The notes below the pieces were generated by a model. The model had not been told where the DNA came from. It saw only the letters and a program-made list of their open reading frames with translations, and ran no database searches. Below are positions 1 to 41,700 of a DNA stretch of 64,000 nucleotides, piece by piece. The translations under genes were made by a program, and so were the position numbers. Source of the DNA: Dipetalonema caudispina (lineage: Eukaryota; Nematoda; Chromadorea; Rhabditida; Onchocercidae). How positions within the stretch are numbered: position 1 is the stretch's first letter; every line of letters starts with the position of its first letter. The stretch is taken from positions 682,001-746,000 of the forward strand of contig JABVXV010000007.1 of the NCBI GenBank assembly GCA_013365325.1, in the 5' to 3' direction.

Positions 1-2766
1 CTCATTTCCTCAAACCTTCCCTTATTCTACACATACATCCGTTGACATCTCCATGACAACAAAATTATGAGTGTTCCATACAAGATGATTTTCGTATGAA
101 TAAATAAATTGCTTTTTTGAATGAAATTATGCTTGAATTAAGGGTTCTTTTATAGGTTTAAAGTGAATTTTAACAATAACAAAAGAATAAATGAATCATC
201 AAAAAGCAAACATATCCTGTGACCCCGTTAATGATGAATGGATGATTGAAGCCTGACCTCTTTTTATAATAAATAAAAATGTGCCCATATAACATAAAAA
301 ACGGAAAAATGTCTTACATCAATTCTTTCCACACAAATTATTTTTCAATATGAGTGTATGTTATAGGACAGGTTATTTCAATATGCAAATAGGTACGATA
401 GCCTTATTTTAATCACATTTTCCGTCGTTCAAATTGGAAAAAAAGGGCAAAATGAATAATGTCAACTTTTTCTCACATATATTTTATGATTCATTGTCCT
501 TAAAATTTATATATTTCAGCAATTAAGCAAATTTAATTGGGATATTTATTGAATGCAATTTTCTATCATATTAAAAACAACAATAGGTTTCGGCAATTGT
601 TTGTGTAATGAAAACTAGTTGTAATTATTCGTGGTTCGGTTCACTTACAGCCCATTAGTTGAATGCATAATTTCTTTTTAAATCATTTCTTCTTCTGGAA
701 TAACATTTTGCTGTACCGAAGATGACAACGGAGGTTGTTCAATGTGCTTTCAAACATTCATTTGAATTCTTTATAGCTTTGTTATTGAGATAAAGAATGA
801 AGAAATGATCAGTCTGACAATTAAATCTGTTGATTTTCAGTCTCTTTTTTCGAAATTTTATCAATTTGAAAATTCAAGATAAATATTTAAAGGGTAATGA
901 AATGTTAATAGAACTATAAAGATGATGAATTGATCTTCGTACTAAATTTTGCCTTCCAGAAGAGGTAGTCTTTACTAAATGTCAATCAGAAATATTATCA
1001 ATTCTTACTTGATAAGTATTGATTTCTCAATCTTTCGTTCAAAAAAAAAAAGAAAATTTATGATTAGGCAAATGATGATTTCCTCAATTCAAAAATCTCA
1101 TCAAAGAGTATAAGTTGATTATACTTTCCCTCAAGAAAAATTCAATTTTACTTTTGAAATAAACAACAACAAATAAATTTTTCTCACTGATTGACCTCTT
1201 GCCTTGTTCTCAGCAATCTAATTGCCCTTTCCATCCCTTTCACCAAATCTTAACAACTCCTAATTTGATGTGGCTATTATTTTCATACATACACCCAAAT
1301 TTCTGAATGATGACAAATGTGATTATAGTAAGCAGACAAATATGCAGACATGTTGAATATGCAGATATCATGTTGAAGTTAGAGGTCAGAATTATCTTAA
1401 ATTATTCTCATAGATGATTAGAGCATTTGGTTGTCAACAAGAAACAAATTGACATGTGAAAAAAGGAAACATAGTTTAATAACACAGCGTTCCTATATTG
1501 TCATTATTTCTGAGTGAAAAAAAAATTTAATTTCTTTTCTCTGATTCAATCAATTAAAATATTTATCAAGTTCGATTAGGAAAATTTTCAGTGATTGATC
1601 GGAGATAATAAAGTCTAAGGATTGAAGAGCAGATGAGACTGTGCTAAAGTTCAATAACACAAGGTACGACAAAAGAATTGAAATGTTACTTTTAATTTTA
1701 TCAATTACCTTAATTATAATTTTCCCCTTCACGATAAATTATTTCTCCCGAGGTGCTTCCACAACTAATACGATCAATATTAATTATTCCTTGAGAAAGA
1801 ATTGAACAATTTTAGACTATCAATAAAATTTCAAGTGAAATCTTCCTAAATAGAAATGGATAAAGTGAACGAAATATCCCACTGCTACCTGTTTCCTCTT
1901 CATCCTCCTAGAAATACGTCATTTTACAGTAATTCCACTTCTTTTCTATGCCATAATTACCTGAAGTATGTTATAAATCATTGTCAACTGTTACTGTTCA
2001 GAGAATTTTTGAGAACAAGATTTACCTGTTAATTTTTAACCTTAGTTTAGGTTTAAACTCAAAAGGTAAGAGATAACACTGAGAAATGACAAATGTGTAT
2101 TGGTAGCTTATCATAAGATGAATTTTATTTTAATGATGAAATAAGTTAAACCACTGATACTTTAAATTTCAGTAAGTTTTTTGCCAGAGTAAGACCCTCC
2201 GATCTGAAACACTTAACGATTTCTACAATTTATGACTCCCTTCTGTAATCTTATTTTGATATTAATGTGGCTAAATTTTCAGTATAGGTTTCGTACAGGT
2301 AATTTAAGATTAAATTCAACTTTATATCAAACTTTTCTAAGCTGCAAATTGGTATTATATTCTTACAATTAACAGCATTGTGTGCTTGAGTTAACATTAT
2401 AGAAATGGGATTGTCTTGCTATATAATTAGTGGACATAAAGCAAAATTAATCAGTCAAAAGCGCCGCTTTGCTTCTACGTAAAAACTTTCGCTAACACTC
2501 TTCCTCCTGAATTTTTCATTCTTTAGAGCTTCTGTGGTAAAGAGATTTTGTAGAATTACTCAGACAAAAAGGACTTCAAATTTAATAAATCATTTCTACC
2601 AGGTGCTTTAGATTTCACGGATGAATGATTCATGCGAACACCAAATAAAAGCGTCAAAGAAGACAATTGACGGAAGTGAGACCTACAATTAATCCTATCG
2701 TATCACTGTATCTTCCACACAAAGGATACGATTATCTTAAATCGCCAGAGGATTTCAAAAAATTCG
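1..2766. other. Largely non-coding AT-rich stretch
   Basis: I see no recognisable gene here. It is AT-rich with short poly-A/T runs. Two minus-strand open segments (2600-2682 and 2479-2531) have splice-like borders and matching phase, and a third open segment ends in a stop at about 679-747. They could be cytoplasmic exons of the neighbouring cadherin gene or chance; they are described as a finding. Confidence 0.5.
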
Positions 2767-3990: not shown

Positions 3991-6900
3991 TCAGCAAACT
4001 CTCCTACAAGACATGAATATCGAGACCAAATTAGTATGAAGAAAAGTATAATCTGTCGTGAGCGATGAAACTCTTTTATTGCTACAATTATTCATCTTAC
4101 TATTCAATTTGAAATTTGTTTTACTACAGTTATTGGTATTTGCAAAAGGTTTATTTAACAAAAGTAAACATACTGTAATCGTCTTAGTGAATCCTTCTGA
4201 CAATAGAGTAATTTCCATGTTCACCAGATGATCATCCGGTTTCTGGTTAATTCGCAACTGTCCAGTTCGACGATCAATATCAGCCCACTGCACACTATTC
4301 ATATATAGTTCATTTTTAAACGAGGTTGTAAAATATTCAACTACAGCACCAGTTTTCGCTACTACGGTACCAAACACTGTGCCAAGTTGAATATCTCGGT
4401 CAAACCGATACTGCTTCTTGAATTCGATTGGTGCTTCAAGCCTCGGATTGATTGGAATCAAAATGTAGTGAAGCTCAGTAGTCTTCCGCAATTCATCGTC
4501 TTCTCGAAATCTAAACCAATTTTTTACTTAAGAAGAATTTGAAATAAAAAAGGCTCGACACATAGAGGGAAATTCAGAAGGATGCACTACTCAGCCAACA
4601 TCACTTCACTTCTCCCAAAATTCTTGAACATGAACTTACCCACTCTTAGTATTTCGATCATAAACCAACACTGAAAAATATTTTGGATCGCCTGTGAATG
4701 GATTAACTGTAAAACCGGTATCGTTTACTTTTGAAACAATTTCCGTACTTCTTATAACTTCATAACCAATTGTTCCATTCAAACCAGCATCTTTGTCTGA
4801 ACAATTCCATGATACGAACAATGACTCAGACCGAACTAGTACTGCTTTAGTTCCAAAGCATTCCGGAGAATTATCATTTTCATCATCCACTTGAACTGAA
4901 ATGATCCTTGACTTCAAACCATGCCTTTCAGCAATAACTAAACGGTAGAAGTTAATTTGTTCACGATCCAACAGTTCATCACAAATTAAATTCTGTTCTT
5001 GAAGGCGAAATGTTGTCCCGGATGGTATTTGACGTAACAACTGCAAATCTCTCCTCAATGTTTCAATTTTGCCACATATTTTACCAACACTATTGTTTTC
5101 CTGAAAATATTTAATTATTGTAAGATTTAGAAAGTTATGGTAAAAATTTTAAATCCTATGAGAAATTTATTGCATTAGTGGATATTGTGATAAAGGAAAT
5201 AAACAATGAAAGGAAGAGTTGAAACCACCTGAATATGAATTGTGATCGTATCCGTGCCGAAATTTCCATTCTTTCTGTCCACTACCGCAATTCCAAAAGT
5301 TGCACTGTTAGAAGTTAATGTTGTTTTAGCTTTAATTATTAATTCAATTCGCTGTCCAACATATGCATCCAGCCGTTTCGTTAAAAATATGCTCCCATCA
5401 GCAGAATTAATCCAAAATAATCCGAGATTGCTATGAGTTGAATGACCATAACTTAATGAATACAAAACTTCTGCTCCACATGCAACAGCATGTATTTGAG
5501 TGATCATTTGTCCGAGCAAGCTGTCATCAATTTTAATGTCGGTATTTGGATAACTTGTAAAATTAGGTGTGCAATCTTTTTCTATATCACTGTGAATGAA
5601 AACGAATGTGACATTAGAAAGTGGCTGAATGCCTTTGTCTGTTGCGATTATGGTGATATTATAGACGTGGTTTGGTGAAAGATGACCATTCTGTGTGATA
5701 TCACCGGTGCTTTCATTGATCTGAAAATAACAAGCATTTTAGATCAGGGAAAGATTGAAATTAAAACTTTTTCAGGTATACGATCAAATTCGAATTCTAA
5801 TTGGTTTAAGATTACAAATTAGTGAAGTTAAATATGAATCAAAAATGATTAGAGGTTGAGAAAAATATTGAAATTACAGTTAATAAAAACATAACTTAAA
5901 AAATCCTGAAAAATTTCAACTGATAATGTAACCTTAAAAGGCATCCATTTTTGCTGCAGTTTGTACCTAACTTCACCATTCAGTGCAGAATCCAGGTCTC
6001 GTGCTAATACTCTACCAACAAAACTATTTTCTGCACTTGGTGAAACATAGAAATGATAAAATTCCTGTTCCCAATACGGTATGTTATCGTTTGAATCTTG
6101 CACTTCAACCATTATCGCACAAGTTGTTTTTAATAAGCCTTCATCCGTAACAATTACGGTTAAATTGTAAAATTGAGCCAGTTCGAAATCCAACACCAAT
6201 AATGCTCGAATCTAATATTTTATAATTTTGAAAATCTTTGAAAATTTGATGACATTTGGCAGTAAAATATGCATAAAATAGTCTTATCAAAAGATACTGA
6301 AATTTTGTCAGAAATTCATTGTTACAATTTTGTGAATTATTATAAAAAAAAGTAAGAAAAACAACTTGGAAAAATGATAATTAACCTGGAAAACGACAAC
6401 AAGTTAACTGTAGTACTCAATTAAAAAACATACGATTCCACTATAGCGATCAATACTGAAGATTTTCTTGCTATTATCTAGCAGTTCATAAAATAATGTT
6501 CCATTTGGACCACTGTCATTATCAATACCATTAAAGAGTCCCACAATTGCACCAGGGATGTTATTCTCGAGAATGATGAATTTATTATTCTTGGGACATT
6601 GCGGTGCATTATCATTAATATCCTACAACTATGGATTTTCTTTTTCTTGAGCAAATGAACTATCATTTGGCAATCTCCCTTAAAAGTTCTATTTATTCGC
6701 TAATTTTAAAGCATCCTTAATTTTATCGAAATCGTTTATTATTTAGAAAAGATTTTCGTGTTTATTTTTTATCAATTTAAAAAAAAAAAATAGATTCAGA
6801 AAGAAGTATAAGAATTTTTTTGAGAGAAATAGGGAGAATTAAATCTCACCTCTATATAGAGCTGAAGAAGGAATTCATGCTTGTTCGGAATTAAATTTTT

Positions 6901-9900
6901 GTCTGAATTGAAAGCAGCAACAGAAATTGATATACAATTCATAATTTCATAATCGATCTTTGATATAACGAAAACTTCACCAGATGGAAAAATTTGAATT
7001 GGATAATTTCCCGCAACTCCGAATGTTTGAAATTCAAAACGTTGGGTTATATTTTTGGGAGCTAAGTTGGTTATAATTGTTCCCAAAGGTATATTTTCTG
7101 CTATCGATAATGCAATTACTGGGGGAAATGAATAGATCTGAAAAAAAAAAACTAACCATTTTTGGTTCATATTGATCTGATACAAATTGAAAATCTTACA
7201 ATCTTCAAGAAATGATAACGACAAGTAAAATTAAGAAGCTTATACTACTGCGAGAAGAAAATGTATGAGAAAAGATAGAAGATATCTTCATTGTTTAGCT
7301 GTAATCTTAACATTTTAACAATTTACCTACCATTAACTAATGAAATACAAACTTTTGGTTGTAATTTTAAAATTAATTAATACGAATTATAAATTCAAGT
7401 TAAAAGATGAATAATTTTAAGTTATGGTCAACTCATGGTCAGTCTGAGAAGAAATTAGCCTGTTTGGCATTAGTGAATGTGCACTTAGCATGGCATGCTT
7501 ACTAATTGTAGTGCAGCAACTGCAATAAAAAGATGAATAGTAATCTTTCATCAAGAAATTTGATGAAAATTACAAGTACCTTATGACGTAGAAAAATTAA
7601 ATTTGAAAAGATACTAAAGAAACTCACTGTTTCATCCTCCTTGATTTCTACCACAATTTTCATTGTACTATGTCTTGATTGTTCACCATTATCAGTTGCA
7701 GTTACATGAAATTGCAACTGATTCAAGCCATTAGGAAATTTTATCAGCCGTACAATGCCTGTTTCTGAATCAATGCCGAAAAAAGTACTGTTGATACTGT
7801 ATGTGATGTGACCGTTAGGACCATCATCTGGATCGTGACAGCGTAACCGAAATAATTCTGCACCAATCCCTATCCAGCGAGTATCAATAACAAACTGAGC
7901 TTTTCCATCAAGTTCAAAGATCGGAGAATTATCATTCTGGTCAAGGATAGTTAATGTTCCTTGGTGCATTGCAGTTGACCATTCACCATCCGCATAAACT
8001 GTGAAACCAATTCTAGGCTCTATTTCACGATCAAATGAACGACGAGCTCGTACTTCGCCCGTGATTTCATTGATCAGTAAATCAGTGGTATTGATACGAT
8101 AACGAATATTTTCCTGTAATTTTTTTTTTTTTAAATAAAATTTCTAATTAAATTAAAGTATTGCAACAATGAACCATATCTAAATTTCAAATGAATCAAA
8201 TACATTAAACACTTATTCAACCATTTTCATTCACCAGCAAATACATTACAATTAAACGTTAATGCAGAAGGGCTAGTTCACTGAATGGATGAAATATAAA
8301 ATAATTATTAACTTGTCTACTACTACATTGAGTTCAACTATAGCGGTAGGGAGTGGGAAGAATGAAATTTCCTTCTAATCGATACAATTTGATCTTTTTT
8401 TTTTTTTTAATGTAAGCAATCGTTATAATAACTCACAATTGATGGATACACAGAAAATGAGGCCAAGATTTTTTCAGGGGATGAATTTTCGCTGATTTCA
8501 ATGGACCAATTATTTGCTGTGTTGAATTTCGGCACTTGAAGCTTACTATCCAATAGCCATATATATACAGTAGCATTGTTACGTGACGAACGACCGCCGT
8601 TATCTTTTGCACCCACAACAATCTGAAGACACATCGTGCCATCACAACTATACGTTTCTCAATTGCACTGATTAAGAATAGTAATAAAACATGAAAAAAA
8701 AAAAAAAAGGTAAAAGCACTAACTTCCATTTTCCGTTTAAAGTTAAGTAAATCAGCATGTACGGCCAAGTGTATTCTTCCAGTTGCATGGTCCAATTTTA
8801 AGAAATTTGGAGTAGAATAATAAAATAAATATGATATTTGGGCAAATTTTGGACTATCGTCATCGAATGCTTCCAGTTGTACGAGATGAGTACCCGGTAA
8901 ATCGCGGTGCACAATATATCCATGATACTCAAGCTGTGCAAAATATGGATCGTTGTCGTTTACATCCTGAAAACAGGTATCGTATCACAGCTCTGCACTG
9001 AAGTATTAATAATTTTTGTAAACTATCAAAACTACTGGTTATTACTCTCTTTTAATTGTTGGTTTCATTGGTACTTATCATTTTCCAAAAAGTTAGATTT
9101 ATCGTTATGAAACAAGATAATATAAGAGTTTGATATATCAAATTAAGATTAATGTGAGAAATATATGGAAAAAACGAACTAAGACATTGATGATAAGAAG
9201 GGTTGAGGAACTCCGCGATGGACTGCCATGATCGGTAGCGGTAACAGTAATTTTATGTTGTTTTTTGGTTTCTCGATCAAGCTTTGTACGTAGCAATATT
9301 TCTCCGGAAAATTCCTTGACTATAAATATTTCCTCCTTAGGGGAGCCTTCTATGCTGTACGAAATAGCACTGTTATTCCCATGATCCTAAATATCGGCTA
9401 ATTTTAATAACTTGGAAAACGATTATTTCTTTATGAGAAATTTCTGCATATCACTTATTAACAGCTCTCCAACAATTTTCACAATTAATTCTGATACTGT
9501 TACATTTGACAGATTTAGTTGAGTAGGAAAAATCTTACCTCATCAGCTGCAAAAACTTTAAAGATGACGGTAAGTGGTGGAATATCTTCCAAAACTTCAA
9601 CTTCATAAAAAGGAGAGGAAAATTGCGGATCATGATCATTCACATCGATAATCGCTATTTGAATTGTGCATATCGAATATTTATCACTGGGAACAGCTTT
9701 TCGTACCATTATTTCAAAATCGTAATTCCATTTTGTATGATTTGGCCACGCTTTGGAAAGTGTTATGATACCTATTAATTATTTCGATTAATTTTCTCAG
9801 GTAACTGAAATGTTTCAAGATGCCTTTCCTTTTGTTTATTCACTTCCTCACTCTATTAATGATAAATGCAGGGAACCAGTATTTTAATTATTAAACATTG

Positions 9901-12900
9901 GCACTTAAAATCCAACATTTGGCTTCCAAATTCCGTATCCCTACTAGTGAACTAGAAAAAGGTTAAAATAGGAAAAATTAGACGCTGATTTATTCATTCA
10001 GTTAAATTTTAATGTTTTTATTCAGCGATCCGATTGAACAGAAAAGTTGAAGTCAGAATTTTACCCGTGTTTTTGTCAACCAAAAATAAGTCGTCATTTT
10101 TTTTGTCATCCTCAATAATTGAAAAGTGCAAATCTTCCTTAGCAGAGGCTCGAACCACCGTAACAAATGATCCAACTGGTGATGTTTCAAAAATATCAAC
10201 TTTTATGAATTTTTCCTCAAGTATTGGAGCAGTATCATTTAATTTCATAACAAAAACCTGAAAATTAATGAATTTTATCCGTTTTCCGAGTTCGATTTCT
10301 CACTTGCTGGCACCCTTTTGTCCTCCCTCACTAGGAGAAAGTAATCTTCTTGTTGGTTTACATAATCCCCAAAACACCGACCTTCAGATCGCGCTCCGAA
10401 GAACGTGGTGGTACGCCATCATCTGTTGCAAAAAATTTTAGCAAGAATTGCTCGACCCGCTTATCCACTATTCGGTTTTGTCTTAAAATACCGTAATTTT
10501 CGCCACCTTCTAATCGAAAATAATTCTCCTCGTTACCACCAACGATAGATATTCGTACATTTTGACCATCATCGCGATCACTTGCCGTTATCACAGCAAT
10601 TGTTGAGCCTACAGCTGTTTCTGAACTTATCGATGCAAATTCTGAATCGGTTGGATAGATCCTATAAAATAGTTGAAATTTGAAAGTAGAACCAAAACAA
10701 TTTTATAGTAGTAACCAGAATCTGAAATTAATTACCTGAAATTAATTTCTGGATCATGCAAATTGGTATTTGTAAGATGTATATAAACCAAAGTACGGCC
10801 AATTAATTTTGGTTCGCCTTGATCTTCTGCTTCCACCGTCAAAACACACATTCCCGAGCAGTCTTGCAAACAACCACCTTCTGAGCAGTTCAATGCAGCA
10901 TACTGTAAAGTATTAATTTTATTTTGTTATTCTCTTTTTGTAGATCCGGAAAAATGTATTGAAACAGAAGATAGAACAGCTAGAGTATCTGATACTTCAA
11001 ATAAATCGAATCAATGCTATCGAAACGGAGAAGGACAAATCAATTACTGCTCAGGATCGTTATTATATGGTTGGAAATTTGGATTCAATTTCCCACATGC
11101 TGCCATACATAAATATAGTCTATTGATTAATTAACCAAACATTAGATTTTTTTTTGAAAACTGAAATTTTCTTTGTAAAGCATAGAATTTGCAAACAGAA
11201 TTTGACTTTTTTCTTTACCTGAATAGTTATATCACCAGTATCGTGATCAATCTGGAAGTATTCGAAAGGATTCGTTCTGAGATAATAGCTGATACGGCCG
11301 TTATTACCGGCATCTGCATCTGTAGCTTCAACCCGTAATACTGTTGCATCCGACAATACTGATCCGTTCAGCTGGATATCATAACGTGGTTGACGAAATG
11401 TTGGTGGATTGTCATTTGCATCTAATACACTTACGTAAACAATGCAATACCCTGAGCTAAAACAAATCTTTAAACTAACGATATTAATTTTATTTAAATT
11501 ATAAGAATGGGATGGAATTGTTTTCCTCAGTATAATAAGTACATTCATTTCGCTCTAAATATTTGACTATAAATAACTTCCTAAAGATCAAAGAAATTTT
11601 CCATAACCTTAATTGTGATAATAAATATATAAACGAGCATTACAAAACTAAAAGTTGAACAGTAACCGAGGTGGATTGCCTCCATCATATGCAGAAATAT
11701 TGAGAATAAACAGATCTCTTGTCTCACGATCCAATTTTGCTAGTAATTCAAGTAGCAAGACATCTCCACCAGTACTATTCGAAGATCGTATTAATGTGAA
11801 AAATTCTTCTCCATTCTAAAAATAGTTCCTCTGAATTCCTGAATTTTTCAAAGTTTGTAATGATTTTTTAGCAAAAACTGACTGACTTTAAGCTCATAAT
11901 TTACAATTGTGCCATTTTCAGCTAAATCCGGATCGTTCGCTGGTTGTAAGCGTATCCGACTACCAATAACCGCTGATTCGACAATTGAAACATTCTAGAA
12001 AATAAATGAAATAGTTAGAATCTTAATTGTAACAACTTTTTTCGAAAGAATATCAGAGAAAATTCTTACTCTAAATTCAAATAACTGCAAAAATTTGTTT
12101 GATTTTGTACGGATTTCATTTGATTTATATTAAGATAGCAAGCGTAGTCAGATTTTTGAGAAGTAAAGCAATATGATAATGAAAATTAACAATGCACTAT
12201 AAATTCATGAATTCTGAACACCTGCAGCAGTAATCCATTGCTTGAATCCGTCATCATTCCCACTAATTACCCCTGTTTTAGATTCCCAACAATTACGAAG
12301 CTTTCTCCGTTGTGTTGATGAAGTGAAATATATAATTAATGCTTCCGATCAATGATCCTTCTCTAATATACACAGGAAAATTTACCACCCACAAATCATT
12401 CTGTGGAAAGTGGTTTAATCATAATATTTTCTTGCTTTTTAATTATGAAAAATTTTTGATAACGTTCTAAATTAAAATCATTTTGACAATGCAGAAAGTA
12501 AAATAGATTTTAGCTATTAAATTAGTATCTGATCTTTGGCGGAAAGTGTTGTTGAACTTCATAAAATTGCTGTTAAAATGCAACCAATCTTCATGGCTCG
12601 TTTCTAATTATACGAAAATTGAAAAATCATTAATGAAGTTTTCCTCCTTATCTTAAAATATAATCGATTTTCGTGAGTGAAAGGATTAAAAACTGATTAT
12701 TGAATAACATCTTTAAAAAAATCAGTTTTTTTTTTTCATTTCGATACCGCAAATGATTTTTGAAATCCGAAATTTTGATGATAGTGAATGCATAAATTAT
12801 AAAAAATAATGGCTATTAGTCAACTTTCGGCTCATTAGACATTCGACCACTAGTGGCGATTATTTCATGACATTCTGACTTGTCTTGAATGCGAAGATCC

Positions 12901-31400: not shown

Positions 31401-32887
31401 TAATATGCAGAATTGAACCAAACTGTCCAACCTCATATCCCTGAACAGTATGAAATTACAAAAAAAAAAAAAGAAAAAAACATACGGCCCAATGACTTTT
31501 GAAGACATCGCTGTCTTTGCAGCTTCAGTAACTGAATGTCGACCCAACTCCTGAGATCCAAATGACAAATTGTCCTGCAGAAAAAATTTAAAAGCATAGG
31601 ATATTATCACTGACTAACTAACCCGAACCACTACATGTTTTTGCTTATTCATCAAATTTCCACAGATTAGACATGAAATTCTTCTATATGCCACTAATTA
31701 CACTAATCCTGGAATGCAAAACCTTTGTTGCTCTGTAATAGAGAAAGGACGGTGCTAAATTACTAACAGCTGATGAAAATACAAAGTGGTACCAATTTCC
31801 CGAATATATACAACTACTTTCAATCTTTGAACTCAATGTATAGATAGACATGTGAATAACGCCATAAAATGAGCAGATAAACACCAGCGAATTTTAAGAT
31901 ATCACTAGAATACCTACCTGCATGTAACGCACAGACTCTTTGCAAGCCAACCGATAACCGTTGATCACAGTTGTGGGATGAACTTGCTGTTTAACTAATT
32001 CATCAGCAGACTTAAGTAACTCGGCTGCCACAATAACTACCGACGTTGTTCCATCACCAACCTTAACACAAATTTATTTGAAATTATCGCAAAGAAGCAA
32101 TTTCTGGATGCATACAAATCTGGATATAATTTACAAGAAAAGAAAAAAAAAAAAAAAAAAAACAATAATGTGCGATCGGATACCTCTTCATCTTGTAACT
32201 GAGCCAATTCAACAAGAACCTTCGCGGCCGGATGTTCAACTTCTATTTGTTTAAGAATTGTCGCACCATCATTTGTCACTATTGCATCCTAAAATCAGAC
32301 ACATGATGTTTTCCGAAAACTCTACTGTAGACAGAACTGCATGAATTCCTAAAATGCGATTTTTGATCTAACCTTCAGGACCATCCCTTACAAGCCTAAA
32401 TGCCGCAGAAAAGTACTGTAAGTACATGAAAAATGCTCAGTGCTACACAAACACTGGTATTGCAAAAGGATGTATTCTTATAACAAAAAACGAAAGATTC
32501 TTAATATGTTTATATTATCAGATCCTATGTTTTGTGGATATATTTGTATGTGTATAACTTACTCCGACATCGTCCACAAGCATTTTATCGAGTCCAACCG
32601 GTCCAAGTGAAGATTTAACAATGTTAGCTATCGCTGATGCTGCCATAACTGAAATTGCGACAGTAAGCTTAGAATGAATTTTTATCAAATCTGCCTGTCC
32701 CAAAAGATTATACTGCACACATAGCAATGTATAAAGAGGTTGGTATTCCAATTAAATATGCATAGATATAGTAATATAAGCAAATAGACTGTTATCAAAG
32801 TAAAATGATACCATTTTGTGTTCGGACAGATTGACCCGAAGTACGTTTGCCCGTAACAGCAAGGAGTCTTTCACCACCAGATGCCAT
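28404..32887 (-). CDS. cct-1: Chaperonin CCT subunit 1 (TCP-1 alpha)
   Basis: One of eight subunits of the cytosolic ring chaperonin that folds actin, tubulin and others. Twelve exons (descending): 32887-32812, 32648-32563, 32288-32184, 32061-31918, 31574-31486, 31105-30924, 30594-30468, 30262-30087, 29727-29550, 29305-29149, 28941-28778, 28596-28404; all in phase, 558 residues. Alpha-subunit identity is clear from [46 protein letters not shown] and [11 protein letters not shown]-site motifs: NDGATIL and GDGTT in the equatorial domain, GGGAVEA near the C-terminal part. The protein ends in an aspartate run (NDDDDDDM), a longer acidic tail than in many relatives. It is divergent from the transporter gene at 33248 and convergent with HSP70. 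Confidence 0.97.
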
Positions 32888-33247: not shown

Positions 33248-35918
33248 ATGGTACTTAATGATAGCGAATTCCATAAGTTGCCGAATTGTACGGATGGAAT
33301 CGGATGGGTTTTGAATGTAATGCTTTTCTTGTATTTATTTGAATTTCATTATAATCGCTTATGAATTGCTCGACTCATTTTTTGTCGAAAATTTCTAGAC
33401 AAAGGTCGGACTATCAAGTCCGATTCAGTTCGCGTCAATATCTGAAAAGGTTAGTTCCCGGAATGATATGTGCAAAGTGATTCGTGTATTTCGAACGTGA
33501 AAGTTTAAATTGCACATTAGACGCATTTACTAAGTCTTATTGCAGATATGAAATAAAGGACAGAGGAAATTGTGATGTTTACTTGCGTTCACATAGAATT
33601 CAGCATGTATTTCAGGTTTTCGGGGATTGTGTCGACACGAACTTAAAATTAATTGGCTTTATCATTGGATTTATATCACTATTCCTGTGGCTTCTACCAT
33701 TAATTCCGCAGCTTCTGCATAATTATCGTACTAAGCGATGTGATGGTCTTTCCATTTATTTTATACTTTTTTGGTATGTTCTGCAAACCAGAATACATTA
33801 TTTATTGAGGAAGAAAATTTAATATTTTGATTGGCTTTGCTTTCGACTGTAAGAGTTAATTAAAAGTTCTAGTAGTTAGGTATGAATGGTTATTTGCTAC
33901 AAAACAACTTTTCCACTGGTTTGCATTGTACTTTGGATGTAATGCTTTTATCAGTGTCATTTGTTTATTGCAAAAATTGTTGCTAAATAAGATAGCATGA
34001 GAAGTTCAGACTAACATCTTCTGGACAGGTATTTGGATCATTTGATTTCGTTTTTTAATTTTGAGGATTGTTGGTGATTCGTGCAATACGGCTGGAGCAG
34101 TACTTACAAATCAACAACCTCTTCAAAAAATTATTGGTGTTTACTACATAATGCAGGTATGCAACTCCAAAGATTATAAGGTGTTATACCTAGTCTTGAG
34201 AAAGCATCCCTTTTTCCAAAAACAATTTTAGTTTCATGAATATTTTCAGGATGTAGTCGTTCTAACTCAGTATTTTTATTATAGTCGCATCTATCCTCAT
34301 CGACTGCGAGGTATCTCTTCAAATTAAGTTTTGAATTTTTGATTTTTTATTGTTTTACATGTATTTCAGTGGTTAGGAAATACTGTGGAAAAAAGTTGTA
34401 ATTGCCTTTAGAATTCTTGGGAAACAATTAATTTCAGTAAGACCAGTGCTTTATTGGTAATGCAGTTTTCATCAGTTACGGTTAGATCGCCTTCATTAAT
34501 TTGGTTGAGTGAAAGCTTTGAGCTTTCTTTTGCTTTATGTCTCGTTCTCATTGATGTTAGTCTATTTCATATGAACTGATTATTAGTTTCGGCACGAAGT
34601 AATCCAATAACAAGTCCAACAGCAATCGTACCTGGAATTTTTGTTGGATTATTCATGGGTGGAACATTGCTTTCAAGTGGTCGTATATCGAATAAATTTG
34701 ATTACCAAGCCTATGAAATGCCACTCGGGAAAAGAAAGTTACTTTCTGTTGAAGCACTCGGTGGACCACCATTTTTCTACGGTTACTACGATTTGGTTGG
34801 CATTATTTCATATGCTATATCTTTTATATTTTAAGAAATTCGAAATTAAAAAAAAAAAGAAAAGAAACTAAACTTTATATGTTTCCTTGTTAGCGGAGAA
34901 GAAAAGATTATTCAGTCGCATACAAGAAATTGCTTTGTTTTTTTAGCTTGGCTATATAATTGGTTCTGTAGCTGCAACTTGCTACTTTGCCGGTCGAATT
35001 CCACAACTGTTGAAGAATTATTACCGTCAATCTTGTGAAGGTATTATATCATAGAAACAAATTAATTTATCTTCCTTGCATGCAAGCTCAAATTGAAACA
35101 GCTAAAAGATGCGTATTTTTGCAGAAGGGGATGAACTATAGTGGTATTCTGAATGAAAAATTGATTGAACAGAATTTTCAACGAATAGTGATATTATTTT
35201 CTGGTGTTATTCTGTTGTATATTCTAAAGTGACGAAAAGTTACATATCTACACAACACTGAATAGTAATTTAATAGAGAATATAGAAAAATTGAACTTCT
35301 ATTAATCATATAAAAATTAGTTACGACTTTCATGCATAAAAATTTATCTCGAAATAGAAATTTGTGATACTGTTTTTTGCAGGTCTCTCTCTGATTATGT
35401 TCTACATAATTATAGCAGCAAATGCTACATATGGATTATCTGTAAGTTTTCAGCTTTAAAATTGTTATTGTTAAATTTGAAACACTAAATAATTGGAAGC
35501 AAAAATTCTGTCATGAAAGCTGAAAACTCATGTAGAATAATATCCGAGAAATTAAACGAAGAAGTTCATTTTGCTATGAATGTCAAAGGGCGGCTCTTGC
35601 ACAGATCTTGTACTTATTGATGTTTCACGTTTATATGTCACAAGTATAACTTTCTTTTAAAAGCAGGAAGAAGGGATTGAAGAATGCAGTGTTTTATCTC
35701 TTGATCTTTTATGTTTATTTTTGAATTTTCATAAATTTTAGGTTTTATTGGAAGCAACTAATTGGCATTATATTTTGCGTCATTTGCCGTGGTTGGCAGG
35801 TAGTTTAGGTTGTTGTATAATCGACGTTGTTATGGTTCTACAGTATTTCTATTATGATCGGTTGAGTCATCAGAAAGATGCAATGGAGCGTGAGGCATTA
35901 CTGGAAGATGCAGAATGA
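33248..35918 (+). CDS. laat-1: Lysosomal cationic amino acid transporter, PQ-loop family (LAAT-1/PQLC2 type)
   Basis: Membrane protein that exports lysine and arginine from lysosomes in relatives. Eight exons: 33248-33316, 33616-33773, 34066-34156, 34250-34310, 34587-34795, 34947-35040, 35383-35441, 35742-35918; all in phase, 305 residues. Both PQ-loop repeats are present: LPLIPQLLHNYRTKRCDGLS in the first and FAGRIPQLLKNYYRQSCEGLS in the second, each next to hydrophobic helices; about seven helices in all. The N-terminal PNCTDG carries a likely glycosylation site, as in family members. The C-terminus ends EREALLEDAE; its ALLED segment resembles a dileucine lysosomal sorting signal. I chose the ATG at 33248 because it leaves 13 residues before the conserved Cys, as in the human protein; 33182 and 33203 are in-frame alternatives. 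Confidence 0.92.
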
Positions 35919-36679
35919 TGTTTTTATATTAGTCTTATGTGCATATATCCCTGTGATCCATTCTTAGATTACGGATGGGTACTTTTTCATAGATTATTGA
36001 TTTTTGAGAAAATTTCTAGAAAAATTACAAAAATTACAACAATAAAATAGTGAAAAATTTCCTTTCCACAGAATTTATTCACGACAGGAAAAATTACTTT
36101 GTTTTAGTTTTCATTTTTGCTATTGTTATATTTTGAGGCTGGCATCTTGTGAAAGCCATAAGAGGTATCTAACTAAGTGCTAACCTCAGCACTTATCTTC
36201 ATTTCGTCCCTTTTTTTACTTTTCCTTTTTCTGAGCTTGGTCTTGTAATTATCGGTTAATCATTTTCCTTGTCATGCATTGCAGTCTGCATTTTCCGAAT
36301 AGACTATTCTCGTTCACTGCTTCTGTATACAACGGACAAAGTCTGCTGAGTCTTGTGCTTTATTTCTCAGTGACTTAAGGTATTATTACAAATAATTAGG
36401 TAAGCTTCGACTTACTTTAAATAAATTCGTGGACTCTGTTTCAATCGTGTTCTTTCTATTTTACCTTATGTTCTACAATGCTTTATCGCATTTATGTGGT
36501 TTTTCCCTTTGATTTACTATTATTGGAAAGCTGGAGATAATAAGGGATCAGAAGATGTTTAAACAATGATGTCATTACAGGCTTAAGGTAATACTTAGAA
36601 GCGATCATGCCAACTATCTACAGATCAAAACAACACATATAAAAAACTGACAAAACATACCATTATTACAAAACCAGCA
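35919..36679. other. Intergenic, upstream of the viral remnant
   Basis: No gene seen. It contains an 8-bp perfect hairpin (stem TAAGTGCT/AGCACTTA, 36174-36195) and, at 36588-36596, the reverse complement of AAGTATTAC, a nonanucleotide found at replication origins of some circoviruses. Where viral sequence begins is not clear. Confidence 0.5.
36588..36596 (-). other. Possible remnant of a CRESS-virus origin nonanucleotide
   Basis: AAGTATTAC on the minus strand, 83 bp before the Rep-like start codon. In circoviruses such a nonamer sits in the loop of the origin hairpin next to rep. Here only a 4-bp flanking pair (GCTT/AAGC) can be drawn, so the stem is weak or lost. In AT-rich DNA one chance copy per window is expected; only the position makes it notable. 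Confidence 0.25.
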
Positions 36680-37531
36680 ATGAACGGCAGAGCAAAATCA
36701 TGGACCGTAACTATATTCAACACGGAAAACTTCACAACCAATTTGCTGAACAACATAGGCAATGGAATAGAATATGGAATAGTTGGAAAAGAAATGTGTC
36801 CTACAACCAACCGCCTCCACTACCAATGCTACTTCAAATACAATTCATCCGTCCGATTTTCAACTTTACAAGCAAAATTACCACAGGGATCGCACATAGA
36901 AAAGGCCAAAGGAGCTCCATATCAAAACTACCAATATTGTAGCAAAGAAACGATATTAGAAGAAATTGGACAACGACCAACTCCACCAAACAGAAAAAGA
37001 AAATCAACAGAAATACAATCCGACTTACTAAAAAAATACTGCAGTAACGAAATTAATTTGGAAGAAATGATAGAAGAAGACAATCTATTCGTCATGAAAT
37101 ATTTCCCCCGAATACAACAAATCAAATCCTATTTAACACCTGACAGAAAAGACATTACTGAACTATACTGAACTATCATTATAACTGGAGATCCCGGTGT
37201 CGGCAAAACATTCTTCGCAACCAAATTAAGCAAATCTTATTATATAAAAACTGCAAACACAGAAAAATGGTGGGATGGATATCACAACCAAGAAATTGTC
37301 ATACTGGACGACTTCTACGGATAGCTATCGCCTGCCGAACTATTCAATCTCGCTGATTCAAAACCACATTTAATTCAAATAAAAGGCGGTTTCGTCAAAT
37401 TCACCAGCAAAGCAATTATAATCACCAGTAATAAAATACCAGAAAACTGGTGGAAAAAGCAAACCATAGAAAAATATGATATGCGAGCCTTCGACAGGCG
37501 AGTCACATTAACATGCCAAATTCTGCAGTAG
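36680..37531 (+). pseudogene. Endogenous circovirus-like Rep gene (broken)
   Basis: An intronless 284-codon frame resembling the replication-initiator protein of CRESS-DNA viruses, closest in pattern to circovirus/cyclovirus Rep (usually about 280-310 residues). The rolling-circle endonuclease half shows motif I (WTVTIFN, residues 8-14), motif II (LHYQ, 46-49) and motif III with the tyrosine (YCSK, 86-89), preceded by HIEKAKG as in circoviruses. The superfamily 3 helicase half shows Walker A (GDPGVGKT, 170-177), Walker B (IVILDD, 206-211) and motif C (IIITSNK, 246-252). Two in-frame stop codons interrupt it, TGA at 37169-37171 and TAG at 37322-37324; there is no frameshift. Motif II lacks the second histidine expected in active enzymes. 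The coding strand is strikingly A-rich and T-poor, unlike the neighbouring genes. No capsid gene is seen on either strand. I infer an old germline integration; contamination or an assembly chimera is possible but less likely given the stops. Confidence 0.9.
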
Positions 37532-38762
37532 TTTCTGTTGCCCATGGTACGGATTGTGGTCGTAGTGGAGGGAAGTTACAGGTTTCTGCCACTTTGTATT
37601 GGTTGCGGCAACCGGATATAATTAGTTAATTTTTTTGCTTGTTGTACTAATGATTTTATTAATAAAGTTTTTATTAAAAAATGTTTGTTACAATATAATG
37701 AAGAAATAGAGATGTGTATGTTAATAAAAGTGAAGAAAAGTAAAGTAAAAATATGGCACTACACATCGCGGCCTGGGCCATGTACAGACGTAGGTGTCTG
37801 ATATCTAAGCGCATAAAATTTTGAAGTGTTTTCTAAATGTATCGGAGTGTGACGAGTTTGTGGTTGAATACAGAAAGTCAAAATACGATTAATTTGATTA
37901 TATTACGGATTGTGGCTGTCGTTGATACTGATGAACAGTAGTAAGAAGATTCGGGAAGCGATGAGAAATGCATGGACTGACTCATTCTCTATTACAGTTT
38001 CGTTTATTGATGATAAATATTCCCGTGATGTTATTGTAAAAGTCAAGTGGAAGATCGGTTGTTCAGTGAACTACTGAGCGATTAAGTAACTACCATAAGA
38101 GGAGAATAAATATTCCTACTTATTTTATATGCGATATCTTTAGTCACTTTATTTTTTGTATTTCTTTTTTTTTATTTTTGCGATATTTTTCCAGCATTGC
38201 AGAGATACAATACGAGATAGAGGAAATATTGCGGTATGAGAGTATGAATACCAGTAATAAGCCCTTCAAATCTCTATATTATAAATCTTTCCATCTTTAT
38301 CCTTGATTTGAACTTGCTAAAGGTAGTTGAATACCATAGACAATGGAATATCTAATAGGTGGGAGGATGTTGTTGCATAGTGGGCACATTTGATGGTACA
38401 AGGTGTTAGCTGGAGTGGGTATACTTCGATGTTGATGTAGTAGGTTGACATTATAGTGAGTGCATGGTAGATTGATTAAGGCGAAGGAGGGAAGTGCATA
38501 TTCAATGAGAGTAGTATCAGAGATGTTGGATTAAATTGTAGAATGAAAGATGGGGGAAGGTGAGAGTGGTGAGCTAATGAACTTCAGACTTATTTGGATT
38601 TCTTCTCTGCTTTTCATTCCACTTTTATGTTTATTGGAGTGAAATGAGGTTGGGAATTAGGAAAAAGAGTTAAGCTTTAGACAATTTCCTATTTTAAGCA
38701 CTCATTTGTTTCAGTTTCATTGAGCTGCTATCCATTGCTTAATTTGTATTCTCCTTTGAAAT
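37532..38762. other. Intergenic, downstream of the viral remnant
   Basis: No capsid-like gene. The 12-mer TACGGATTGTGG occurs at 37548-37559 and again at 37904-37915. A 48-codon open frame (37931-38077, +) reads MNSSKKIREAMRNAW and onward; it is too short to judge. The rest is T-rich sequence leading to NOP56. Confidence 0.45.
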
Positions 38763-41700
38763 ATGGGGGATGTTCCGCAGTGTGTATTGTATGAACATGC
38801 CATTGGATATGTCTTGTTTCGTGTTGCGGAATTCGAAGACATTGGAACGAGTATTCCTCAGGTTCGCATTTCTATTTTCAAATGAAAACATCTTTAGTTT
38901 TCATCCTTTTAGGCTTTTGTTTTCAAATTACACTAATTCTTGTTTCTTCAATTTTTCAATTCTTTCATCCTGTTTACTGATGACAACGTCGTTTCAGGTG
39001 GAAGAGTCTATCGCTGATGTGCAGCGATTTCATTCACTTGTTAAAGTAGAAGCTTTCGAGCCTTTTAAAAATACTGAATCAGCATTGGAAAATTGTAACA
39101 GTGTATCAGAAGGTAACTTATTTTTTACCACTGGCATTCGTGTAATGTATGAATTTAAGAATTTTATAAAACTACTGGTAGCAAATATATTCAGCGCTGT
39201 AATTTTCCAACTTCTTTCTTAGTTACTTTTACTGGTTTTCGTTTTCTTAGATTAATTCGTATTTAGTTCAAGCTTTTAACTGTATACAAAATATGAAAAT
39301 GTTGTCAAAGTTGCTAAAAGAAAAGCTGAGTGTGGTATTTTTTTAGGTCAGCTTCATCCAGATTTGCTTAATTTTCTGGAAGCAAATTTACCGAGAAAGA
39401 AAAAAAGAGTGGTGACACTTGCTGTTGGTGATTCGAGATTGGCTAGCGCCATAAGCGAACAAATTACTGGTGTGAAGTGTCAAATTTCTGGAGTTGTTCC
39501 GGAACTTATGCGTGGTATACGCATACATTTTGAATATCTTGTCAAAGACTTGTCTCATCACTCACTTTCAAAAGCCCAGCTTTCACTTGGTCATGGTTAT
39601 TCGCGGAAAAAGGTATGCATTAATATATATTGTTTAATTCCTTTTTGGACTGAAAAGAAGGAATGTCTCTAATTAATACTCGTTTCGTATTCCGCCGCAG
39701 ATTCTAACTCTATGAAATGTGGATTTCATATCTTATATTTTGAAGGTTAAATTCGATGTTCATCGAGTGGATAATATGGTAATTCAATCAATTGCTCTCT
39801 TGGATCAACTTGATAAGGATATTAATCTTTTCGGGATGAGAATTCGAGAATGGTGAGTCGAGTAAAAGATATAGTTTATGTAAAGAACTCTTCAAACCGA
39901 CGTAACAGGGCTGGATTATTGAGGATAAGGAATTTTTTTTTGGAGTGATGGAGAATTTGAAAAATTGGGCTTTCAGGTATTCATATCATTTTCCCGAGCT
40001 TTTCAAATTGGTTCCTGAGCAGTTCAAGTATATAAAATGTGCGTCCAGTATAATGGATCGAAAGAAACTTGATGACGATGTGGTCGAAAAATTGAACGGT
40101 TGGTGTTTGTGATTTATAATAAACTTAGAGCTGGTTTAAACAGTAGTCTATATGTAAGTGCTATATCGTGAACATTTCATCTTTTGTGTTCGATAGCTAG
40201 TCTTGGATGTTCAACCATGTTTTCAAATTCGACTCTCTCCACTTGACTAAGTGTATTTTAAGAAGACCTAGCATTACCTAATTTATGATCATTAAAGAAA
40301 GCCAAGGATTACCGAAGTATTTTATGATTGAGCATTATTTTGAGTACCGCTGAAATGAAGGTAATTTTCATTTACGAAAGGAAAATCAATAAAGCGGCTG
40401 AAATTTTTGGCATTTTTTGTTAGGATCAAAGTGGTAGGATTATGAACAGTCTCAAGTGCAACGAGGTATTATTTCCCAATAGCTCGAAGCAAGTCTGCTT
40501 ATATATCTTGAATCAAATCTGAGTGTTTGATTTCTCGATAAGTGTTGGGAATTTAGCAACAATTTAGCATTGCGACATGAATTCGAATGGTTGAACTGCT
40601 AGCAGTGTAGCTTTGGAAGAGAACATTAGCAGTGAATGTCGCAATGTTGGAGTCTTTAAAGAAATGTAGATTTCATAAGGAGTATTAATGTTTTCTTTGT
40701 TTCCAGAAGTCTTGGGGGATAATGATAAAGTAGCGGAAATAGTGGAAGCTGCACGAACATCGATGGGAATGGATATTTCTGACCTTGATTTATTTAATGT
40801 TGATCGTTTCGCGAAGCGTGTTGATGAACTAACAGTTTATCGCCAAAGACTTCATGCATATGTTAAAGAGCGTATGCATTCATGCGCGCCATCACTTTCG
40901 GCATTAATTGGAGAACAAGTAATGAAATTTGTGATTAATTTAAATTGAATTTGGATGAGGAGGGATTGCATATCATTTTAAGACAGTACAAGGTAATTAG
41001 TGGGTTCCATTTTTTCAGAATTATGGAATAAAATTCATTTCTGTTTCCTACAACTTGATGTCATAAAGTCTTAAATTCCAAGTCTTTGGAGTAATCTTTT
41101 AATTCTTTAGTGGTTATTTCTCAGGTTGGTGCTCGTCTGATTTCGCATGCAGGAAGTTTAACAAATTTAGCAAAATATCCAGCATCAACTGTGCAGATAT
41201 TGGGAGCTGAAAAAGCGCTTTTCCGTGCACTAAAAACTAGATGTTTGTCCTTTTCTTTCATTTAGATATGCATATGACAGTGATCGGCTCTTTCGTATTG
41301 CGTTTTTGAAATCATTTTGTCTACTGTTTGCCATTACTTTATTATGACAATTGCTCGATTTTGTTTTATTTTTATTTAAAATTAAAGTACCCTGTATATT
41401 TTGCAGCAAATACACCGAAATATGGCCTTCTCTTCCATTCTTCGTTTATTGGTCGTGCATCTACGAAAAACAAAGGTCGTATATCACGTTTTCTTGCAAA
41501 TAAATGCACAGTGGCTTCTCGTATTGACTGTTTCGCAGATGTACCAGTGGCTACATATGGTGAACACCTAAAACAGCAGGTTTGGCATGACGATGATAAT
41601 AATAATAACTATTTCAAAGATTTCATCAAGAGTTCGCGTTTCTGGAGATCTTCTAATGAAATTTTTGAAATCAAAATTTTCGAAATCAGACTTAAACTCA

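Follow-up and report, generated by a model that had tools for sequence, protein, structure and literature searches.

Circovirus-like Rep sequences have been known in filarial worms since 2011, when Liu et al. described one in Brugia malayi, ten in Loa loa, three in Wuchereria bancrofti and five in Onchocerca volvulus (PMC3198968). In the accessible text of that report the worm copies cluster, ESTs related to roundworm copies are recorded, so that some nematode copies may be expressed, and the only capsid-like sequences are three from tobacco and sloth. Rosario et al. (2018) found that, of four nematode Rep elements, three group together, and proposed a lineage that infects nematodes; the accessible sections of their paper also describe several copies of one nematode that could not be used and extrachromosomal Rep elements of one free-living nematode (PMC6186406). 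According to the same sections, a cyclovirus element of Hymenolepis microstoma, a flatworm (tapeworm), consists of Rep joined to a partial capsid. Dennis et al. (2018) screened 675 animal genomes, and the accessible part of their report gives no new capsid-derived element (PMC6069186).

What is added to this picture by the locus described here, in the genome of Dipetalonema caudispina, is a selection pattern among the Rep copies and a capsid-like gene. As in the filarial worms of Liu et al. (PMC3198968), the genome holds several circovirus-like copies, mostly degraded; compared by description, the accessible text of that study contains no worm capsid-like sequence, whereas a capsid-like gene and dN/dS values are available here. 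The likeness to the nematode lineage of Rosario et al. (PMC6186406) is likewise one of description, and differs in that several copies of one nematode are used here and, as far as the accessible sections go, not there. The Hymenolepis microstoma element (PMC6186406) is similar in lying in a helminth genome and in joining Rep to capsid, but its accessible description places both in one frame, whereas the capsid-like tail here is inverted and in another frame. Within the accessible portions of the open-licence literature we found no publication that describes a capsid-like element from a nematode or compares dN/dS between the copies of a single worm genome, so novelty is unproven. The same portions gave no description of a free circovirus of a parasitic nematode, which makes fossils of this kind the main evidence.

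The window, the whole stretch of DNA that was analysed, comprises 64,000 nucleotides (C742:682001-746000) of an assembly of 78.06 Mb in 764 contigs. On its plus strand a single frame runs from an ATG at 36680 to a terminal stop at 37529-37531 and is interrupted by in-frame stops at 37169-37171 and 37322-37324, and the three pieces between stops (163, 50 and 68 aa) were searched apart. Piece 1, the rolling-circle endonuclease part (36680..37168), matches the Viral_Rep family (PF02407, 3.3e-9) and Rep chains in the PDB, led by 5xor (7e-7, 33 bits) in an alignment that extends through HIEKAKG...YCSKE. Piece 2 (37172..37321) is the helicase part and matches RNA_helicase (PF00910, 5.4e-11). Piece 3, the remaining helicase up to a junction discussed below (37325..37512, its 68 aa including codons past that point), gave no meaningful match in a Pfam search and is 80-84% identical to eight other places in the genome. 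We take HYQ and YCSK (36935-36946) in piece 1 to be motifs II and III, 37187-37210 and 37298-37315 in piece 2 to be Walker A and Walker B, and ITSN (37421-37432) in piece 3 to be motif C. A profile of six copies again retrieved Rep chains from the PDB (5xor, 6.9e-9), with unrelated weak matches only from 0.028 up, and a helicase profile from five other copies retrieved 8xms (1.6e-23) and 7lar (7e-23). The best PDB matches of both domains are solved circovirus Reps, 5xor and 7lar being, we presume, structures of porcine circovirus 2 Rep, where the PDB tables give just Rep. Similarity to 5xor is low, at 33 bits for piece 1, and motif II reads HYQC here versus HLQG in 5xor. Four stop-free frames of at least 190 codons occur in the window, the Rep frame among them; because a bare frame of that length is unremarkable, the evidence for Rep is homology. 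Judged by that homology, the locus is a homologue of a CRESS virus Rep with endonuclease and SF3 helicase, and the similarity to CRESS Rep that the initial annotation had proposed from motifs alone is borne out by the family profiles.

The relic is embedded in host chromosomal DNA as judged from the assembly, on a 764-kb contig with host genes on both sides. Upstream lies a gene region (33481..35918, plus strand) with a PQ-loop domain at 33481-33819 (PF04193, 1.5e-14), whose extent past that exon comes from open frames and the initial annotation only. Downstream is NOP56 (39280..40945, plus strand), with exons tested at 39280-39669, 39906-40109 and 40679-40945, the first matching solved Nop56 at 2.2e-23 and the last matching the Nop domain. 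Both features of the setting claimed at the outset are supported: a nematode chromosome carrying a circovirus-like Rep as an endogenous element, and the position of this Rep between two nematode genes on the same strand, with all three on the plus strand. When 1721 bases were searched against the assembly by a method that skips very common words, only 36679-37702 was found elsewhere, and the viral stretch is accordingly bounded by single-copy flanks. No target-site duplication was found, and among 20 of the 25 direct-repeat families, inspected by eye, none flanks both ends. Farther upstream of the PQ-loop gene, a TCP-1/cpn60 chaperonin exon lies on the minus strand at 32037-32285 (PF00118, 4.6e-14).

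The 3' end of the relic is a rearrangement. Rep homology ends at about 37512-37515, so that the Rep gene relic (36680..37512) reaches from the start codon to about 23 codons before the end seen in other copies, and 37516-37702 corresponds, in inverted orientation, to the 3' portion of a capsid-like gene in one of those copies, at C22:353345. The inverted tail of that gene occupies 37513..37629 (plus strand), with 38 codons and a stop in a frame that differs from Rep and 89% identity over 37 residues to C22; a non-coding stretch follows (37630..37702), at the end of which DNA homology to the C22 copy ceases. By eye, three bases are common to the Rep and capsid-like strands where they meet near 37512, an overlap compatible with end joining or template switching. 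An extension of the Rep frame to 37531 was considered and rejected, its end being capsid-like DNA read out of frame. The 284-codon frame reported in the initial annotation accordingly keeps its start, its two internal stops and its end, but the five codons that precede 37529 lie outside Rep. Decay by stops only was also rejected: the first stop sits in a perfect 10-bp tandem repeat (37156..37176, plus strand), and the statement that both lesions are stops without any indel therefore fails. With the 3' end and the first stop both misread, the argument drawn from that statement, that the integration was recent or the frame was preserved for a time, loses its basis. Of 152 codons that are unchanged across five or more other copies, 9 are altered in the window copy; for the remaining fragments the corresponding counts lie between 0 of 84 and 7 of 104. 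An upper-type estimate of drift in the window copy is 0.026 per site (0.012-0.049), and because such counts include viral change no date is given.

At the 5' end, DNA homology between the window and the C459 copy starts one base ahead of the start codon, as might be expected if the viral DNA had been opened close to an origin lying immediately ahead of Rep. A nonamer-like string, CATTATTAC, does occur at 36661-36669, upstream of Rep. No hairpin occurs at that site, and none of the other copies that were scanned has a string like CATTATTAC just upstream of Rep; we therefore claim no origin.

The copy at C22:353345 carries the capsid-like frame in a more complete form. It is convergent with Rep, tail to tail, and has 145 codons, with 40% Arg+Lys in the first 30 residues and a pI of 10.2. 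A stop removes the last 15 codons, and counting the broken tail the gene would have about 160 codons, which is short for a circovirus capsid. Searches of the frame found no Pfam family at E ≤ 1, a best PDB match at E 0.79 that is unrelated, no support in NCBIfam and, in PHROGs, only a match of 0.093 to a single-strand-binding family; homology to a circovirus capsid was thus absent from Pfam and PDB. The circovirus layout, according to the accessible part of Dennis et al., has Rep forward and capsid on the complementary strand (PMC6069186). It is the match between this layout and the convergent arrangement in C22 that leads us to read the arginine-rich frame as a candidate capsid, and if the frame is a capsid gene, Rep and capsid lie convergent on opposite strands in this copy as in Circoviridae. 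The convergent frame would then be a candidate capsid gene that homology searches miss. In the capsid-like gene the window copy and C22 differ by 9.5 synonymous against 3.5 non-synonymous changes over 21 codons, and by 5 against 0 over a further 15; C22 and C90 differ by 10.5 against 12.5 over 45 codons, a sign of weak constraint.

In the assembly as a whole, Rep is present as nine fragments at eight loci, that is, the window and seven more clear loci, all on contigs of at least 25.7 kb. Searched against the assembly, piece 1 has 11 matches (E ≤ 10) and piece 3 has 9 (E ≤ 1), and all six places returned by a Viral_Rep family search fall within these loci. Long open frames of 251-293 codons persist in four copies, and none of the eight loci has a complete, uninterrupted Rep. 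There is a frame change in the C459 copy; in C576 the Rep start is replaced by a duplicated inner piece; C22:353345 has a stop and no ATG before the conserved part of the frame; C11 is without about the first 38 codons (window numbering); C22:30965 has an inverted start and one stop; C524 has a frame change and is cut off by the contig end; and C90 is fragmented into two Rep fragments, one with a stop. Ends and internal rearrangements vary between copies, and the DNA of the window copy differs by 22-27% from the others. In a neighbour-joining tree of amino-acid differences, without support values, the window copy lies on a long branch, C459, C22:30965 and one C90 fragment form a group, and the other fragments make up the rest.

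Several of these loci have features of their own. On C90 (C90:43001-53000, local 4383-5440) a capsid-like fragment and two Rep fragments, which belong to different groups and show 76% and 90% identity to the C576 copy, share one strand over about 1.1 kb, and the capsid-like piece leads almost straight into Rep; the cluster could be one recombinant insert or could result from two captures in the same place. The C459 (C459:1-9000) and C11 (contig end, local 9646-9968) copies adjoin the same repeat family, whose units reach up to 98-100% identity between the two contigs and might belong to a satellite or a subtelomeric array. Just before the Rep start codon of C459 (local ~580-630) two near-identical 20-bp direct repeats were seen by eye and are perhaps Rep-binding repeats. 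An open frame of 192 codons, single-copy, at C22:30032-30607 (local 568-1146, plus strand) ends about 0.3 kb before a Rep relic and has no family in Pfam or PHROGs and no relative in the viral contig collection. The frame beginning 'GSGVGLLLDMF...' beside the C22:30965 copy was rejected as a second viral protein, as it overlaps the inverted Rep start. A weaker Rep-like stretch with stops (C189:56501-66500, local 4890-5060; 37-55% identity), excluded from the locus and fragment counts, is perhaps an older or different relic.

The pattern of change among the copies bears most directly on how they arose. Codon comparison of all 36 pairs among the nine fragments gave a finite dN/dS in 30, the six others being synonymously saturated and yielding no ratio. 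Ratios for 29 of the 30 fall between 0.018 and 0.126, with many synonymous distances close to saturation and with bootstrap lower bounds that cannot be relied on, since resamples that reached saturation were scored as 0. Constraint is also seen in close pairs: C11 and C524 give 0.053 (over 127 codons, 17 differences are synonymous and 4 non-synonymous), and C22:353345 and C11 give 0.063. The exception is C459 versus C22:30965, at 0.36 (0.18-0.69), and these two also have DNA in common beyond the Rep end; they may represent one insertion that was duplicated. Duplicates of a dead insert are expected to approach a ratio of 1, so the low values point to strong selection on Rep during the divergence of the copies, and the simplest setting for this is replicating viruses that were captured again and again. 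With one possible duplicate subtracted from the eight loci, this reasoning gives at least seven captures.

Taken together, low dN/dS between copies and damage in each locus are best accounted for by divergence before insertion and repeated capture. We consider it very probable that a circovirus-like virus left 36680-37702 in the germline as a rearranged relic, and that this locus and the seven others with Rep stem from repeated capture of related viruses. Viral DNA would have been rearranged before or on joining and would have entered at an intergenic site between the PQ-loop gene and NOP56, the insert consisting of Rep from its start codon to about 23 codons before the end, fused to the inverted capsid-like 3' tail. 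Joining may have been by end joining or template switching, after which the inserted copy would have decayed to its present state, in which it can make no complete Rep. Divergence itself would have taken place in the replicating viruses, with at least seven separate captures. Repeated capture of one lineage suggests that the virus infected the worm line itself; a vector or host tissue as source is possible and not needed. The earlier picture of one encounter and one decaying copy gives way here to several damaged relics that form a family and whose sources were related yet not identical, and the nine fragments with their pre-insertion selection signal shift the account from one past virus contact to repeated infection of the worm line by related viruses. 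If the lineage still circulates in worms, it should be directly searchable in worm or vector sequencing data.

A virus-derived mobile element would account for some of the same observations. Here a germline lineage with Rep and capsid would seed copies by its own rolling-circle activity, the active lineage being selected while its copies decay, and low dN/dS between copies would be expected as well; two Rep fragments of different groups lying together with a capsid-like piece on C90 agree with this, and such behaviour is proposed for integrated Reps in the accessible text of Liu et al. (PMC3198968). We regard it as unlikely, since none of the eight loci has an intact copy, ends are non-uniform, internal rearrangements differ and a transposon has no need of a capsid-like gene; of the marks of a virus-derived transposon, uniform ends or intact copies, the eight loci show neither. 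Similarly improbable, in our estimate, is the broader proposal of a lineage like the circoviruses, possessing Rep and a capsid that has escaped recognition, living long in close germline association, possibly as a vertical or semi-autonomous rolling-circle element, and repeatedly leaving rearranged copies, the genome then being a time series of one virus family without known living members. Less credible again is that the worm took over Rep as a working gene family, its conservation reflecting host use, as low dN/dS, the frames of 251-293 codons and the roundworm-related ESTs noted in the accessible text of Liu et al. (PMC3198968) might suggest; stops, frame changes, lost starts or inversions at each locus, with no complete Rep at any of the eight, speak against it. 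Damage in each locus and differing ends weigh against both a working host gene and an active mobile element as the source, though the mobile element keeps a small probability. The idea that one captured copy was later duplicated within the genome has very little in its favour beyond the DNA common to C459 and C22:30965 past Rep, the dN/dS of 0.36 between these two, and the repeat adjoined by both C11 and C459; one insertion with later duplication is rejected for the other 29 finite pairs on ratios of at most 0.126, where dead duplicates should approach 1. Contamination or misassembly, in which free viral DNA was joined to worm contigs, is hardly conceivable for a window copy that has lesions, differs by 22-27% from the other copies and lies within a 764-kb contig between host genes, even though junctions are known from the assembly rather than reads and the C459, C11 and C524 copies sit near contig ends.

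Exogenous relatives were sought in the viral contig collection, where patterns matched 12, 4, 108 and 100 stretches, none of them confirmed. Rfam and tRNA scans of the window gave nothing useful. In the assembly, a search for ftsZ found none, and so no Wolbachia was detected. The canonical SL1 leader occurs as one exact 22-mer (C176:90197-90218), a single site even allowing one mismatch and perhaps a collapsed array; the exact match speaks for a nematode source, and a backwards control contained no exact 22-mer; the best Rfam SL1 match fell under the cut-off, its sequence being without the canonical leader. Finally, a GST exon in the assembly has as its nearest solved chains 5d73 and 1tu7, which we take to be filarial GSTs.
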